From Tenacibaculum todarodis (GTDB taxonomy: Bacteria > Bacteroidota > Bacteroidia > Flavobacteriales > Flavobacteriaceae): a stretch of DNA of 64,000 nucleotides. Below, piece by piece: positions 24,317 through 59,721 of the stretch. The translations under genes were made by a program, and so were the position numbers. Under the pieces are notes generated by a model. The model saw only the letters and a program-made list of their open reading frames with translations. It did not search any database and was not told where the DNA came from. Each line of letters starts with the position of its first letter. Position 1 is the stretch's first letter. The stretch is from the NCBI RefSeq assembly GCF_001889045.1, contig NZ_CP018155.1, positions 1,111,001 through 1,175,000 of the forward strand, in the 5' to 3' direction.

Positions 24317-26446
24317 ATGAAAAAAATAACACTACTCTTATTAAGTGTTTTTTTTATTGGAGCATCTACATTTGCCCAAGAGAAAAAAATAACAAAACAA
24401 GGACATACTAATCAGAATAAGTTTAAACAACTTAAGCAAGAATTAGCAACGCCAAACAGTCAAAGAACTGCTTCTGGTGCGCCTGGTGTAAACTACACAC
24501 AACAAAAGGTTGATTATGTAATGGATATCGTTTTAGATGACGAAAACCAAAAAATTACAGGTAATGAAACTATTTTGTACCACAATAATTCTAAAGATGA
24601 ATTAACATATTTATGGGTTCAATTAGACCAAAATATGAGAGCAAAAGACTCTAAAACTCCAGATATTTCTACAAATAAAGTGCCATCAAAGATTCCGAAA
24701 AGATTTTTTGACAGAGCTTTTCCGGACAAACCGTTTGACGGTGGTTTCAACATCACAGCAGTAACAAACACAGACGGAAGTAATTTATCGCACACCATTA
24801 ACCAAACAATGATGCGTATAAACCTACCAAAACCATTAGCTGCTGGAGAAAAATTTTCATTCAACATTTCTTGGTGGTATAATATTAATAATCATAGAAC
24901 ACAAGGCGGTAGATCTGGTTTCGAGCATTTTACTGAAAACGGAAACAACAATTATGTAATTGCTCAATTTTACCCAAGAATGTGTGTGTATGATAATGTA
25001 GAAGGTTGGCAAAATGACCAATTCTGGGGAAGAAGTGAATTCGCTCTTGAATTTGGAGATTTTGATGTAAATATTACGGTTCCCGCAGATCATATGTTAG
25101 GTGCAACTGGTGTTTTACAAAATAGAAAAGAAGTTTTTACTAAAACCGAATTAAAGCGTTTTGCTCAAGCAAGAAAAACATTTGACAATCCAGTTGTAAT
25201 TCGTACACAAGAAGAAGCTACAAAAATTGAAAAAAGTAAGACTACAAAAACTAAAACTTGGAAATTTAAAGCAACCAACGTAAGAGATTACGCGTTTGCA
25301 ACTTCAAGAAAATTTATTTTTGATGCAATGGCAGTAAATATTAACGGAAGAACTGTTATGGCAGAATCTTTATATTCTAAAGAAGCAAATCCATTATACG
25401 GAGAACATTCTACCAGAGCAACTGCACAAACTTTAAAAACATACTCTAAATATACGTTTGATTATCCGTATCACAAAGCAATTTCTGTAGATGGACAAAT
25501 GGGAATGGAATATCCACAGATTTGTTTCAATCCTGGAAGACCAAATGCAGACGGAACATATTCAGACAGAACAAAATACAGAATGATAAAAGTTACCATT
25601 CATGAAGTTGGACATAACTTTTTTCCAATGATTGTAAATTCTGATGAAAGACAATGGACTTGGATGGACGAAGGTTTAAATTCTTACATGGAAATGTTAG
25701 CAGAATGGGATTATGACAAAGATTTTCCTATAACAAGAGGATTGCCAAAAAACATTGTAAAATACATGAGCGGAGATCAATCTAAAATAGCGCCAATAAT
25801 GTCTAAAGGAGATCACACTTATAGCTTTGGTAACAATGCTTACGGAAAACCTGCAACAGCCTTATACATTTTAAGAAATACAATTATGGGTAAAGAATTA
25901 TTTGATCATGCTTTTAAAACTTATGCTCAAAGATGGAAATTTAAACACCCAACTCCAGCAGATTTCTTTAGAACTATGGAAGATGCTTCTGGTGTAGATT
26001 TAGATTGGTTCTGGAGAGGATGGTTCTATACAACTGATGTAACTGATATTGGTATAAAAGGTGTTAAAAAATTCCACACAAAACCAAACGGAAATAATGT
26101 AGATTTTATTGAAGATACTACTGAAGGATTAGGTTTTGGAGCTGGAAAAAGCACAGATTCTAAATATCATTATGAAATTACGTATGAAAAACCAGGAGGT
26201 TTAGTAATGCCTATTATTGTAAAGTTCGATTATAAAGACGGAACAACAGAAAGAAAAGTTTATCCAGCTCAAATTTGGAGGCTTAATGATAAAGAAATAA
26301 CCAAAGTATTTTCTTCAAACAAAGAAATTTCTAAAATTACAATTGATCCAGACTTAGAAACTGCAGATGTAGATACTTCTAATAATAGCTGGCCAAAGGA
26401 AACAAAAAATAAATTTGATAAATTTAAAAATAAAGTAAAAGGTTAG
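24317..26446 (+). CDS. M1 family zinc metallopeptidase, secreted, copy 1
   Basis: A protein of 709 residues from the ATG at 24317, which gives a clean signal peptide (MKKITLLLLSVFFIGASTFAQ); an in-frame TTG at 24290 was rejected. The zinc motif HEVGH is at 429-433, and the third ligand lies in WMDEGLNSY about 20 residues later. The substrate-binding loop reads GMEYP in place of the GAMEN of classical aminopeptidases. The N-terminal M1 beta-domain (about 60-300) includes YLWVQLDQNMRA. It probably digests peptides in the periplasm or outside the cell. A close paralogue follows. Confidence 0.9.
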   Translation: MKKITLLLLSVFFIGASTFAQEKKITKQGHTNQNKFKQLKQELATPNSQRTASGAPGVNYTQQKVDYVMDIVLDDENQKITGNETILYHNNSKDELTYLWVQLDQNMRAKDSKTPDISTNKVPSKIPKRFFDRAFPDKPFDGGFNITAVTNTDGSNLSHTINQTMMRINLPKPLAAGEKFSFNISWWYNINNHRTQGGRSGFEHFTENGNNNYVIAQFYPRMCVYDNVEGWQNDQFWGRSEFALEFGDFDVNITVPADHMLGATGVLQNRKEVFTKTELKRFAQARKTFDNPVVIRTQEEATKIEKSKTTKTKTWKFKATNVRDYAFATSRKFIFDAMAVNINGRTVMAESLYSKEANPLYGEHSTRATAQTLKTYSKYTFDYPYHKAISVDGQMGMEYPQICFNPGRPNADGTYSDRTKYRMIKVTIHEVGHNFFPMIVNSDERQWTWMDEGLNSYMEMLAEWDYDKDFPITRGLPKNIVKYMSGDQSKIAPIMSKGDHTYSFGNNAYGKPATALYILRNTIMGKELFDHAFKTYAQRWKFKHPTPADFFRTMEDASGVDLDWFWRGWFYTTDVTDIGIKGVKKFHTKPNGNNVDFIEDTTEGLGFGAGKSTDSKYHYEITYEKPGGLVMPIIVKFDYKDGTTERKVYPAQIWRLNDKEITKVFSSNKEISKITIDPDLETADVDTSNNSWPKETKNKFDKFKNKVKG

Positions 26447-52391: not shown

Positions 52392-53261
52392 ATGTCAGAA
52401 AAATCAGTTGTACTTCCAGAAAGAGTAAAAAAACCAAAATGGTTGCGTGTAAAATTACCTGTTGGTAAAAAGTATACAGAACTAAGAGGTTTAGTAGACA
52501 AATACAAATTAAATACAATTTGTGCCAGCGGAAGCTGCCCAAACATGGGAGAATGTTGGGGAGAAGGAACTGCAACATTTATGATTCTTGGAAACATTTG
52601 TACACGTTCTTGTGGTTTTTGCGGTGTTAAAACCGGAAGACCAGAAACAGTGGAATGGGACGAACCTGAAAAAGTAGCACAATCTATTAAAATTATGAGC
52701 ATTAAACACGCCGTAATTACTTCTGTAGATAGAGACGATTTAAAAGATGGAGGTTCTATTATTTGGGCAGAAACTGTACAGGCAATTCGTAGAGCAAACC
52801 CTACAACAACTTTAGAGACATTAATTCCTGATTTTCAAGGAAACACAAAGCAATTAGATAGAATTATAGCAGAGCATCCAGAAGTTGTTTCTCACAATAT
52901 GGAAACTGTGCGTCGTTTAACGCGTGAGGTTAGAATACAAGCAAAATACGATCGTAGTTTAGGTGTTTTAAAGTACCTTAAAGAAAACGGAATGCGTACA
53001 AAGTCTGGTATTATGTTAGGTTTGGGTGAAAAGGAAGAAGAAGTTATCCAAACTATGAAAGATTTACGCGAAGTTGGTTTAGATGTTATTACTATTGGTC
53101 AATACTTACAACCAAGTAAAAAGCATTTACCTTTAAAAGAATTTATTACGCCAGAGCAATTTAAAAAATACGAAACTTTAGGCTTAGAAATGGGTTTTAT
53201 GTACGTAGAAAGCGGACCTTTAGTACGTTCTTCTTACAAAGCTCATAAACACGCTAACTAG
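52392..53261 (+). CDS. lipA: Lipoyl synthase
   Basis: A protein of 289 residues with both 4Fe-4S clusters of LipA: the auxiliary cluster C44/C49/C55 ([12 protein letters not shown]) and the radical-SAM cluster C70/C74/C77 (CTRSCGFC). The C-terminal RSSYKAH carries the serine that ligates the auxiliary cluster. It inserts two sulphur atoms into octanoyl groups to make lipoate for 2-oxoacid dehydrogenases. It has its own -7 element. It overlaps the convergent membrane-protein gene by 4 bases. Confidence 0.98.
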
Positions 53262-53905
53262 TTTTTAACTTTTAATTTTCTTTTCCAATACACAATATAA
53301 ATTGTGCCAAAAATAGTTGGCAACATCCAAGCAATTAAATTGTTTAAACTTAAGCCTGCAACTAAAAATGCAGTAACAGAAGCTATAAAAGCACCAATCA
53401 TTTTACCAACATGATTTGTAAGCCATAAATTTCTTTTGGTTGAAAGGTTTCTATAAAAAATGAAATCTTTAATAGATAATAAGAACCCGAAGCCTCCAAA
53501 GAACACAAATAGTAAAAATGCAGTTGTATTACCTTTTATAAGGAAATAAATACCGAATAAAATCATTACAACTGAAAAGAAAAACATACTTCCTGAGGTA
53601 ATTTTATCTGTTACAGTAGCTGCTGTTTTAGTTTTCGATTTAAAGGTTAAAACCTGATTTCCTGAAACAACTAAATAAATAGTAAAAAGCCCAATTAACA
53701 ACAAAAATATATTTTGATGATTTGGCAAACAAGCAATAGGAATCGATATTAGTGAACTCACCAGCATTCCTATTGAGAACAACTTTCCAAAACGTTTATG
53801 CGGTATACTTCCCTTTTTTACAACAATACTTCCAATACCAGAAATTAAACCCAATCCGCCAAAAAAAGCGTGTATGTATATAAATACGCTAATTATTTCT
53901 TCCAT
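53258..53905 (-). CDS. DUF2306-like integral membrane protein
   Basis: A protein of 215 residues with about seven hydrophobic helices (for example [64 protein letters not shown]). The N-terminal [21 protein letters not shown] and the [13 protein letters not shown] segment resemble DUF2306 proteins. A charged SIPHKRFG loop lies between helices 1 and 2. It sits in the inner membrane; the function is unknown. The family assignment is from memory and tentative. Confidence 0.6.
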
Positions 53906-54111: not shown

Positions 54112-54128
54112 TTGGCACACCATTTGCA
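54112..54128 (+). promoter_or_regulatory. Sigma-54 (-24/-12) promoter
   Basis: TTGGCAC (54112-54118), a 5-base spacer ACCAT, and TTGCA (54124-54128) match the sigma-54 consensus TGGCAC-N5-TTGCW without mismatch. It is in the 342-bp gap between the DUF2306-like and 79-residue genes, pointing right. The start of the transcript would be near 54139. No protein gene in this orientation follows before the terminator at 54192-54226. The rest of the gap (53906-54111) shows nothing recognisable. Confidence 0.7.
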
Positions 54129-54164
54129 AAGAGTAAACTGAAGACGACGTAGTAAACCGTTTTC

Positions 54165-54194
54165 ATGTGTAAATTATTTGAATTAGTTGATTAA
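54165..54194 (+). CDS. Putative 9-residue mini-ORF in the sigma-54 transcript
   Basis: ATG TGT AAA ... GAT TAA encodes MCKLFELVD. It is the only ATG frame inside the predicted transcript and ends at the terminator stem. It has no Shine-Dalgarno-type sequence, but most genes in this window lack one too. It may be chance. Confidence 0.2.
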   Translation: MCKLFELVD

Positions 54195-54226
54195 AAAAAA
54201 CCACCTCTAACGAGATGGTTTTTTTA
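54192..54226. terminator. Bidirectional hairpin terminator
   Basis: AAACCACCTC pairs with GAGATGGTTT around a TAAC loop, with T-runs on both strands. There is one C-A mismatch on the plus-strand RNA, which becomes a G-U pair on the minus-strand RNA, so it fits the leftward 79-residue gene best and would also end the sigma-54 transcript. Confidence 0.75.
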
Positions 54227-54487: not shown

Positions 54488-55846
54488 TTAAATAGCACTT
54501 ATAATATCATACTTTGTAATAATATGGTGATTCCCGTTTTCTAAATCTACTAAAACAGCTTGATTCTCTTTGGTAATCAATTTAGATATTTCTTCTAATT
54601 TTGCAGATTTCTTAACTATAGGATATGGTTTTCCCATAATATCTTTAATAGGTTTATCTGCAATATTTTTATCAGCTATAAAACTGTGTAATAAAACAGA
54701 CTCATCAATAGAACCCACAAAACCATTAATATCTTTTACTGGAATTTGCGAAATTTTATAATCGCGCATACGCTCTATTGCATGCGAAACCAATTCTTCT
54801 GTTTGTGCAGCAACTAAAGGCTCATCTGAATGATTTTTAATTAAATCTGCAGCCGTTTTAATTTCCTCTTCCAAGAAACCTCTTTCGCGCATCCAATCAT
54901 CATTAAACATCTTACCAACATATCTACTTCCATGATCGTGAAACAACACAACAACAACATCATCTTTAGTAAAATGATCTTTTAATTGCAACATTCCTTT
55001 AATAGCAGAACCTGCAGAATTACCAACAAAAATTCCTTCTTCTTTGGCAATTTTTCTTGTGTAAACAGCAGCATCTTTATCTGTTACTTTTGTAAAACCA
55101 TCAATTAGAGAAAAATCTACATTTTTAGGTAAAATATCTTCTCCAATTCCTTCAGTTATGTAAGGATAAATTTCATTCTCATCAAAAATACCTGTTTCAT
55201 GGTATTTTTTAAATACAGAACCGTAAGTATCAATTCCCCAAATTTTAATATTCGGGTTTTTCTCTTTTAAATATTTTGCTGTACCAGAAATAGTTCCTCC
55301 AGTTCCTACTCCAACTACAAAATGTGTTATTTTTCCTTCAGTTTGTTCCCAAATTTCTGGTCCAGTTTGCTCATAATGCGCCAATGCATTACTTGGATTG
55401 TCATATTGATTTACATACCAAGAATTAGGCGTTTCTGCACCTAAGCGTTTAGAAACTGAATAATAAGAACGTGGATCGCTAGGTTCTACGTTGGTTGGAC
55501 ACACAATTACTTCTGCGCCAACAGCACGTAAAATGTCCATTTTTTCTTTAGATTGTTTGTCCGAAATCACAAAAATACATTTGTAACCTTTTATAATTGC
55601 AGCCAAAGCCAAACCCATTCCGGTATTTCCAGAAGTTCCTTCTATAATTGTTCCACCTGGTTGTAAACGACCATCAGCTTCTGCATCTTCAATCATTTTT
55701 AACGCCATTCTATCCTTTACAGAGTTTCCTGGGTTAAACGTTTCCACTTTGGCCAACACCAAAGCATCTATCTCTTTGGTAACTGAATTTAACTGAACCA
55801 ATGGTGTATTTCCAATGGTTTCTAATATATTTTTTGCGTATTTCAT
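54488..55846 (-). CDS. Cystathionine beta-synthase-type PLP enzyme with CBS domains
   Basis: A protein of 452 residues. The PLP domain (about 5-320) has the lysine K44 in NPGNSVKDRMA, GTSGNTGMGLA near 70-80, and VGVGTGGTISG for the phosphate loop. Two CBS motifs (about 335-452) follow, such as MRDYKISQIPVKDINGFVGS. This is the fold of cystathionine beta-synthase; a cysteine synthase activity is also possible, as the catalytic domains are nearly the same. It makes cystathionine from serine and homocysteine in the cytoplasm. A -7 element precedes it, and a composite repeat starts 8 bases beyond that element. Confidence 0.9.
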   Translation of the reverse strand: MKYAKNILETIGNTPLVQLNSVTKEIDALVLAKVETFNPGNSVKDRMALKMIEDAEADGRLQPGGTIIEGTSGNTGMGLALAAIIKGYKCIFVISDKQSKEKMDILRAVGAEVIVCPTNVEPSDPRSYYSVSKRLGAETPNSWYVNQYDNPSNALAHYEQTGPEIWEQTEGKITHFVVGVGTGGTISGTAKYLKEKNPNIKIWGIDTYGSVFKKYHETGIFDENEIYPYITEGIGEDILPKNVDFSLIDGFTKVTDKDAAVYTRKIAKEEGIFVGNSAGSAIKGMLQLKDHFTKDDVVVVLFHDHGSRYVGKMFNDDWMRERGFLEEEIKTAADLIKNHSDEPLVAAQTEELVSHAIERMRDYKISQIPVKDINGFVGSIDESVLLHSFIADKNIADKPIKDIMGKPYPIVKKSAKLEEISKLITKENQAVLVDLENGNHHIITKYDIISAI

Positions 55847-58743: not shown

Positions 58744-59721
58744 ATGAAAAAATTACTATTTATTTCACTTATAATTACTTTTATTTCTTGTCAAGATAAA
58801 TTTGAGCCAAATAAATATAATGGTGATTGGATTAATATGGACGAAGATGGTGGTTTTTCTTCTTTGCCTTCAATCATTTTTAAAAATGATTCAATTTATT
58901 TTTCTGATGCATATACTTATACTACAAAGGCAAAATTTAAAATTAACCGAAATAAAATCAGTTACTTTTTTAAAAATGATACTGTAATTAATAAATTTAA
59001 TTTTTCTTCTAAAGATTCTACAATTACAATTGGAAAGAATATATATTATTTTTTGAAAGAATATTCAGATTTTAGTGAATTAACAGATTATAATTTAATT
59101 GGAATAAAAAGTAAAGAAAAAGTTATTGCAAATTCTTTATATAGTTCTTCAATAGGTTTCCATCTTTTTAAAAATAAAAATGATTCTTTGAATTTAAAAT
59201 TAAATGATAGGGTTACAAGTAATTTAAATGAACTATCTTATTTCATTAACAATACTGGTATTCATGATCCATTTACGTTTTCAACTACTATTTATATAGG
59301 CAAAGAAGTAAACTTAAAAAATTTAATTAACTGTTATATTCGATTAACAGCAAATAATAGAAACAAAAGTTTAATTATAACAGATTATAACTTTAAAGAA
59401 AATTCTTATTCAATATTTTATGACAGGATTTCTCTTTGGGAAAATCAATTAGAAATATTTTATAAAGAAAATAAAATTCCTCCTGTTCCACCAAATTTGG
59501 AAAATTATAGGAATAAATATCTAAAAAAGTATTCTCCAAAAATCATAACTATAAATTCTTCCAAAGATTTTAACCTACTTGAAAACATTAATAAAGAAAG
59601 TGTTTATTTAATTAGTATCAACCCAGAAATGGAAATAGAAACATATTTAAAATTAAAAGAAAAACTTATAGAAATAAAGAGAAAAAGAAAAGTTAGAATA
59701 AAAACAGAGTTTGTTTTATAA
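58744..59721 (+). CDS. Predicted lipoprotein of 325 residues, unknown
   Basis: A signal sequence with lipobox FISC (Cys at residue 16) and then QDKFEPNKYNGDWINMDEDG, resembling the start of lipocalin-like or DUF-type Bacteroidota lipoproteins. The central part is Asn/Ser/Lys-rich with beta-strand patterns (IIFKNDSIYFSDAYTYT). The C-terminal 100 residues are more charged (LKLKEKLIEIKRKRKVRIK). It starts 11 bases after the NamZ-like gene, so the two are probably co-transcribed. I do not recognise the family. Confidence 0.65.
   Translation: MKKLLFISLIITFISCQDKFEPNKYNGDWINMDEDGGFSSLPSIIFKNDSIYFSDAYTYTTKAKFKINRNKISYFFKNDTVINKFNFSSKDSTITIGKNIYYFLKEYSDFSELTDYNLIGIKSKEKVIANSLYSSSIGFHLFKNKNDSLNLKLNDRVTSNLNELSYFINNTGIHDPFTFSTTIYIGKEVNLKNLINCYIRLTANNRNKSLIITDYNFKENSYSIFYDRISLWENQLEIFYKENKIPPVPPNLENYRNKYLKKYSPKIITINSSKDFNLLENINKESVYLISINPEMEIETYLKLKEKLIEIKRKRKVRIKTEFVL

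Follow-up and report, generated by a model that had tools for sequence, protein, structure and literature searches.

The locus lies in a 64-kb window (by which we mean the whole stretch of DNA that was analyzed) of a genome consisting of a single 3.02 Mb contig (G000). No open reading frame of at least 60 amino acids occurs between 53905 and 54248, in agreement with the gene-free gap described in an earlier note on this DNA, and the gap carries a sigma-54-type promoter followed by a predicted small RNA (Table 1). The consensus −24/−12 promoter claimed for 54112–54128 is an exact match: TTGGCACACCATTTGC at 54112–54127 is the sole exact TTGGCACN5TTGC in the window, where shuffling gave a chance expectation of 0.02 on average. 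The terminator that had been placed about 90 bases downstream is real but interrupted, with a predicted fold of 10 pairs, a 1×1 mismatch, 3 pairs and a 4-nt loop; a simple terminator scan of the window did not list 54194–54225, presumably because of the internal mismatch. The conserved upstream neighbor is lipA, with a lipA-type C-terminus on the same strand within 1.6 kb upstream in 70 of 79 copies of the RNA, and in the window one inserted open reading frame separates the two.

Table 1. Coordinates of the features at the RNA locus and of its flanking genes (window numbering)
Feature	Position	Strand	Basis or remark
Sigma-54-type promoter, TTGGCAC-N5-TTGCA (−24/−12)	54112–54128	+	Unique exact match in window; conservation
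Predicted small RNA, ~87 nt	54139–54226	+	+1 at 54139/54140 if C54127 is −12
5′ hairpin, arms 54139–54146 and 54158–54165	54139–54165	+	Fold; starts at predicted +1
Conserved open core, 28 nt, proposed SusC-leader pairing region	54166–54193	+	Conservation, accessibility, complementarity
Rho-independent terminator, one internal mismatch	54194–54225	+	Fold and covariation
Mini-ORF MCKLFELVD, judged not a gene	54165–54194	+	Frame behavior in homologs
lipA, lipoyl synthase (radical SAM)	52392–53261	+	Radical_SAM above cut-off, LIAS_N slightly below
Hypothetical protein between lipA and the RNA	53258–53905	−	ORF without Pfam match
PLP-dependent enzyme with CBS domains, downstream neighbor	54488–55846	−	Pfam PALP and CBS

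The region 54140–54226 folds with a z-score of −3.0, and none of 200 shuffled sequences was equally stable. In the predicted fold of the window RNA, the mean unpaired value was 0.66 over 22 core bases and 0.34 elsewhere; over 80 copies folded with their downstream flank the core mean was lower (0.52), and core accessibility appears less clear across these flanked copies than in the window RNA. Of 72 distinct 5′ segments, 69 fold into a 5′ hairpin that has five or more pairs and stops no more than 8 nt from the core; the mean z against mononucleotide shuffles was −2.4. Terminators were detected in 70 of 72 distinct copies, with 50 distinct stems among those 70, and the length of these 70 homologs from predicted +1 to stem end has a median of 85 nt (range 76–102).

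Nothing in Rfam reached gathering score at the locus, and the relaxed matches there all fell far short of their cut-offs. In the whole window the only Rfam match at gathering score, outside the locus, was the Flavo-1 RNA (RF01705; 56069–56188, plus strand, 48.6 bits), about 1.9 kb downstream of the RNA.

Conservation of the RNA and its promoter

A DNA search of 59 relatives, 36 of which belong to the same genus, returned 30 loci (L001–L030), each in a different genome of that genus. G006 (L044) and G018 (L043) hold further copies, the latter divergent, and L049 in G010 is a candidate that has diverged further still; no copy was seen in the same-genus genomes G007, G014 and G030, which are 53–84% complete. 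An exact-pattern scan for promoter plus core across a collection of species genomes yielded 78 stretches with 79 copies, mostly from Polaribacter, Tenacibaculum, Aureibaculum or unnamed Flavobacteriaceae, with one bin labeled "uncultured Flavobacterium sp." (L131). Judged by eye, the locus has its nearest named relatives in Tenacibaculum aquimarinum K20-16 (L166) and in T. pelagium (L111). One or two copies per genome were seen, the two-copy cases being a tandem (L124), a pair on one contig (L139 and L149) and a pair in Polaribacter sp. WD7 (L122 and L138).

Among 397 sampled family genomes, the exact promoter-plus-core pattern occurred in five, or two of 237 genera, and the reversed pattern in none. 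These five were all three same-genus genomes in the sample and both genomes of genus g139, which we take to be Aureibaculum because the G177 copy is identical to the A. marinum copy L143.

Alignment A1 was built from 27 of 36 candidate loci, omitting the near-duplicates L026/L027, the N-bearing L024, and L007, L030, L041, L042, L046 and L049 as divergent or wrongly placed. In these 27 aligned copies the core TGTGTAAATTATTTGAATTAGTT is near-invariant, and 8 of 12 consensus terminator pairs changed on both sides with pairing kept; all 8 of these pair-preserving double changes fall in the terminator. The RNAalifold structure of covariance model R1 pairs the invariant core bases and does not show the 5′ hairpin, a region with many gaps in the alignment; the hairpin was therefore judged by the separate folding given above. 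The covariance search that the earlier note had proposed, run on 249 family and 247 phylum genomes, recovered true copies in this genus and g139 and none elsewhere. Two matches of the model, L085 and L087, were judged by eye to be chance and lack the promoter. A search for a sigma-54 promoter with AATTATTTGAATT in other genera matched 2 of 249 genomes, our own and G162, where the rest of the RNA is not evident in the matched letters; the spacing limit of this search missed the known positive G020, which makes it a weak negative.

The pattern behind the 80-copy set itself fixes TTGGCA, TTG and TAAATTATTTGARTTA, and for these letters we therefore assessed conservation in the 34 similarity-found copies (L001–L030 and L041–L044). 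The earlier note had named absence of promoter conservation among close relatives as the finding that would count against it, and we found instead that TTTGGCA-N6-TTG is perfect in 30 of these 34, with one mismatch each in L030 and L042, two in L043 and three in L029. The last two keep a conserved core with a degenerate sigma-54 box, which may reflect a promoter switch. In the pattern-found set, where the search fixed TTGGCA and TTG, TTTGGCAC/T occurs in 79 of 80 copies; conservation of the C at −12 is weak (TTGA 30, TTGC 29, TTGT 12, TTGG 9). The −24 GG element and its correct spacing to the −12 element are conserved, as expected of a sigma-54-dependent promoter.

Exact sigma-54-like strings are by themselves weak evidence, and the case for the promoter rests on conservation. 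The genome holds 10 TTTGGCAN6TTGC strings, compared with 3 for the reversed pattern. Other sites that are plausible promoters lie 5′ of a cold-shock-like, a lipoprotein-like, two thioredoxin-like and one exported-protein gene (named by eye from their N-termini), and the remaining strings fall within genes. The sigma factor gene rpoN (PF04552) is present in 57 of the 59 relatives, our own genome included, and the two relatives without it are 57% and 67% complete. A simple word count upstream of the RNA copies gave no clear motif for an activator site. We conclude that the existence of an RNA gene at 54112–54226 is, by comparison of homologs, close to certain and that its control by sigma-54 is likely; the proposal of a sigma-54 promoter driving a short transcript is borne out by the conservation of promoter and RNA, with the transcript itself predicted only. 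In F. psychrophilum, the sigma-54 regulon is reported to take in chaperones and proteases, genes for gliding and for exported proteins, as well as a thioredoxin-family protein and one putative RNA, Rfp36 (PMC9723704). From this content, our best guess is that an envelope or protein-stress cue would switch the gene on.

Complementarity to SusC leaders

Core-only similarity matches in the relatives lay antisense over the start codons of SusC genes, and a SusC target was then tested in four ways. In our own genome, the CarbopepD_reg_2 domain gave 42 matches, of which 30 loci were screened, and the two best SusC-type loci among these paired with the core at −28.6 (L070) and −21.9 kcal/mol (L064). 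Two other CarbopepD_reg_2 genes gave −24.1 (L080, G000:C1:2873041) and −20.9 kcal/mol (L075, G000:C1:856909). The SusC starts lie at G000:C1:54419 (minus strand) and, for the other SusC of the cluster, at 59296. The scores of the two proteins far exceed the cut-off of TIGR04056 (SusC/RagA), and both genes are followed by a SusD-like gene, forming a SusC-SusD-SusC-SusD array. The background comprised 422 starts of open reading frames of at least 80 amino acids, drawn from 400 kb of this genome together with the window, and had a mean of −10.6, an SD of 2.9 and a best value of −22.4 kcal/mol. Against it the first SusC ranked 1 of 423 with a duplex of −28.8 kcal/mol and the second ranked 3 with −22.1 kcal/mol. 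The best of 1000 shuffled cores reached −18.9 kcal/mol against the first SusC. The complement of the 26-base consensus core had no match in our own genome at up to 3 mismatches, because the SusC leaders there lack one base relative to the consensus core; the duplex energies permit a bulge and so accommodate these shorter leaders. The second-best background pairing (−22.3 kcal/mol) belongs to an aminopeptidase-N-like gene (weak NCBIfam matches) at window positions 24317–26443 on the plus strand, with the leader GCTAATTCAAATTTCG.

Across the 59 genomes, AATTCAAATAATT-N2-8-ATGA gave 63 matches in 30 genomes and the reversed pattern gave 1. The RNA gene itself, read backwards, accounts for 25 of the 63; the other 38 comprise 30 SusC-like starts, 3 copies of a second antisense-RNA-like gene and 5 unrelated sequences. 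These 30 starts, called by N-terminus and length (with HMM support for the two of our own genome only), are 29 of MKTKF/MRTKF type plus L218, a shorter TonB-receptor-like protein.

A comparable ranking was carried out in Aureibaculum on 800 kb of genome G604 (g139) with 776 ORF starts, where SusC genes were recognized by regular expression and others may have been missed. The RNA of this genome has GAGTT in place of GAATT. Paired with their own RNA, SusC-like genes ranked 1, 6, 8 and 11, and a fifth, which gave −9.7 from a wrong upstream start, outscored all 776 with −19.5 when taken from its MKTK start. The matching C (AACTC) is present in 2 of the 5 genes, the other 3 carrying AATTC, which pairs through G-U.

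The second RNA-like gene is found in three Tenacibaculum genomes (L232 in G017, L204 in G022 and L206 in G027), and has a sigma-A-like TAnnTTTG box and its own hairpin and terminator. Its core is complementary to SusC leaders and first codons, the same SusC starts with which the sigma-54 RNA is predicted to pair, and its predicted pairing with SusC of the same genome is −45 to −50 kcal/mol compared with −33 to −37 kcal/mol for the sigma-54 RNA. The hairpin arms differ between L204 and L232 with predicted pairing kept.

The SusC leader motif extends across the family, being present in 103 of 199 Flavobacteriaceae genomes (98 of 185 genera), with 136 matches by manual count compared with 13 for the reversed pattern, and 25 of 30 inspected leader loci of other genera were SusC starts of the same type. 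These 30 loci (L240–L269) share an almost identical leader and start, CTAATTCAAATAATTATAAAATGAAAACAAAGTTTAGTGG, immediately preceded by a TTTTGGC-like box. The leader is family-wide, though the exact promoter-plus-core pattern places the RNA in only 2 of 237 genera; since it occurs also where the RNA was not found, it is probably kept for another reason too. Complementarity of core and leader need not mean regulation; the simplest account is an ancient leader, maintained for reasons of its own, that the RNA came to exploit.

We compared SusC-type starts only, 29 from RNA-bearing genomes (L201–L237) and 25 from genera without a found RNA (L240–L269); because leader sequences are related, p-values for this comparison are only descriptive. 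A spacer C next to the AUG is present in 25/29 and 6/25, respectively, and the mean leader duplex energy is −23.6 and −21.0. At the 5′ end of the motif the Watson-Crick fit is better in the genera without the RNA, whereas RNA-bearing genomes have a G-U pair. Covariation of leader and RNA is mixed, and with a leader motif that is family-wide their co-evolution is only partly shown.

By sequence, the locus has what would be expected of a gene for a trans-acting antisense small RNA, with its own promoter, its own terminator, a conserved accessible core and no conserved open reading frame, together with target pairing that is conserved and above background, subject to the caveat that the SusC leader is family-wide. 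The new result is that the SusC/RagA leader and start codon are the probable target of the RNA.

A possible role in the control of SusCD importers

The best explanation of the locus, and in our view a reasonably probable one, is an antisense small RNA under sigma-54 control that would repress SusCD uptake. An enhancer-binding activator would switch on RNA polymerase with sigma-54 at 54112–54128, probably in answer to an envelope or physical-stress signal. The product, for which comparison gives good support, would be an RNA of ~87 nt running from 54139/54140 to the terminator and made up of the 5′ hairpin and the open core. The core and the adjoining hairpin arm (54158–54165) are computed to pair with mRNAs of SusC/RagA TonB-dependent importers, with ~30 predicted pairs spanning the start codon and the leader 5′ of it, chiefly for the SusC at G000:C1:54419 (minus strand) and more weakly for the other SusC of the cluster (59296). 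With the initiation site covered, SusC translation would be blocked and linked SusD lowered, and the large outer-membrane importers would be cut back while the sigma-54 regulon is on. Pairing with SusC starts is likely on these comparisons, and repression of SusC is our best guess as to its effect.

The earlier note knew of no described gene with this arrangement. This holds insofar as Rfam gave no match and no description of this RNA was found in open-licence literature on small RNAs of Flavobacteriaceae or Bacteroides with sigma-54, TonB or SusC, but two published RNAs come near. FopS RNAs of Bacteroides thetaiotaomicron repress SusC translation at the start codon and form a set of 14 paralogs of ~65–70 nt with canonical sigma-ABfr promoters, a seed in the 5′ part and binding by RbpB (PMC11697453). 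The RNA described here resembles FopS (and GibS) as a short noncoding Bacteroidota RNA with predicted pairing around a SusC-like start codon; it differs in having 1–2 copies, a sigma-54-type promoter, a central core behind a 5′ hairpin and a different clade, a comparison made by description and not by sequence. Since FopS is a multi-copy family with canonical sigma-A-type promoters, we do not file the 54112–54226 RNA as a member; a FopS-like mode of action by a different RNA is what we would regard as the best explanation. Rfp36 of Flavobacterium psychrophilum, near position 840245 in strain THC 02/90, is a putative regulatory RNA whose start has been mapped downstream of a sigma-54 (SM4) promoter, and it belongs to a co-expression cluster with exported and gliding genes (PMC9723704). 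The two are likened by description, as sigma-54-promoted putative RNAs of Flavobacteriaceae, and no F. psychrophilum record was among the 78 stretches found with the promoter-plus-core pattern.

More distant parallels, drawn from features and not from sequence comparison, lie in other phyla. Enteric small RNAs of the MicA/RybB type depend on sigma-E and Hfq in Proteobacteria and target porins; the likeness is that an alternative sigma factor turns on a small RNA which, at the start of the mRNA, reduces the synthesis of outer-membrane proteins, as proposed here. The Vibrio Qrr small RNAs are LuxO-activated, multi-copy, serve quorum sensing and have targets that include regulators, and they share with the present RNA sigma-54 dependence, a long conserved pairing core and a terminator.

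The chief competing possibility, which we consider unlikely, is that a genuine sigma-54 small RNA acts mainly on other mRNAs or on a protein, the SusC match being incidental or a side effect and the leaders being kept for translation. It would account for the SusC leader motif in many genera without a recognized RNA, and unrelated gene starts in our own genome, such as that of the aminopeptidase-like gene at 24317, also reach −20 to −22 kcal/mol. However, SusC was the top match independently in two genera, a second gene with another promoter type has the same complementarity, and shuffled cores come nowhere near the ~30 predicted pairs that span the start codon. A less probable variant, to which we give little credence, is that the RNA pairs with SusC leaders and activates or stabilizes the mRNAs. 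The direction of an effect is not readable from sequence, and flavobacterial Rfp18 is reported to pair with protease mRNAs through its third stem-loop, its loss lowering two protease mRNA levels (PMC9723704). Against this, pairing that covers the start codon normally blocks initiation, and FopS is described as a repressor at the same place (PMC11697453).

That the locus instead encodes a message for the nonapeptide MCKLFELVD, the second of the two products that had been envisaged for it, is very improbable. The mini-ORF runs from ATG to TAA as claimed, with its stop touching the terminator stem, and in 75 of 80 copies the codon before the TGT position is TTG or ATG. When promoter and frame are checked together, as had been recommended, the promoter holds but the frame does not: it is intact in 23 of the 34 similarity-found homologs, the same stop is used in only 15 of those 23, and indels break it in L007 and L013. 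Of 80 copies, 69 have TTG and 6 have ATG at the start position, which lies at the edge of the hairpin arm; the window reads CATGTG against CATTGTG in most relatives, and the exact tail CKLFELVD-stop is present in 38 of 80. Neither copy set shows the conserved start, frame and stop of a small-peptide gene, and the evidence favors an RNA gene over a peptide gene. A chance promoter and terminator in a gap without any gene is hardly credible, since dozens of species have kept the sequence, the promoter, the structure and the place behind lipA, even though sigma-54-like strings also arise randomly in the genome (10 versus 3 reversed).

Marine Polaribacter and Tenacibaculum relatives use algal polysaccharides, largely through SusCD importers, and to our knowledge the post-transcriptional switching off of these importers has received little attention outside Bacteroides. 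An RNA under sigma-54 that acts on SusC starts would be an RNA-level link in Flavobacteriia from a stress-type sigma factor to glycan uptake, and a testable analog of the enteric sigma-E small RNAs. More tentatively, and in our view less likely than not, the near-identical SusC leader and start CTAATTCAAATAATTATAAAATGAAAACAAAG, shared by many genera of Flavobacteriaceae, could be a common handle by which one small RNA can shut down a whole class of SusCD systems, the sigma-54 RNA serving in Polaribacter, Tenacibaculum and Aureibaculum and unrelated RNAs in other genera. The second, sigma-A-like RNA of some Tenacibaculum would be a first sign of such unrelated RNAs. Such a handle, if real, would mean that nutrient uptake is joined to an envelope-stress program through the sigma-54 RNA.
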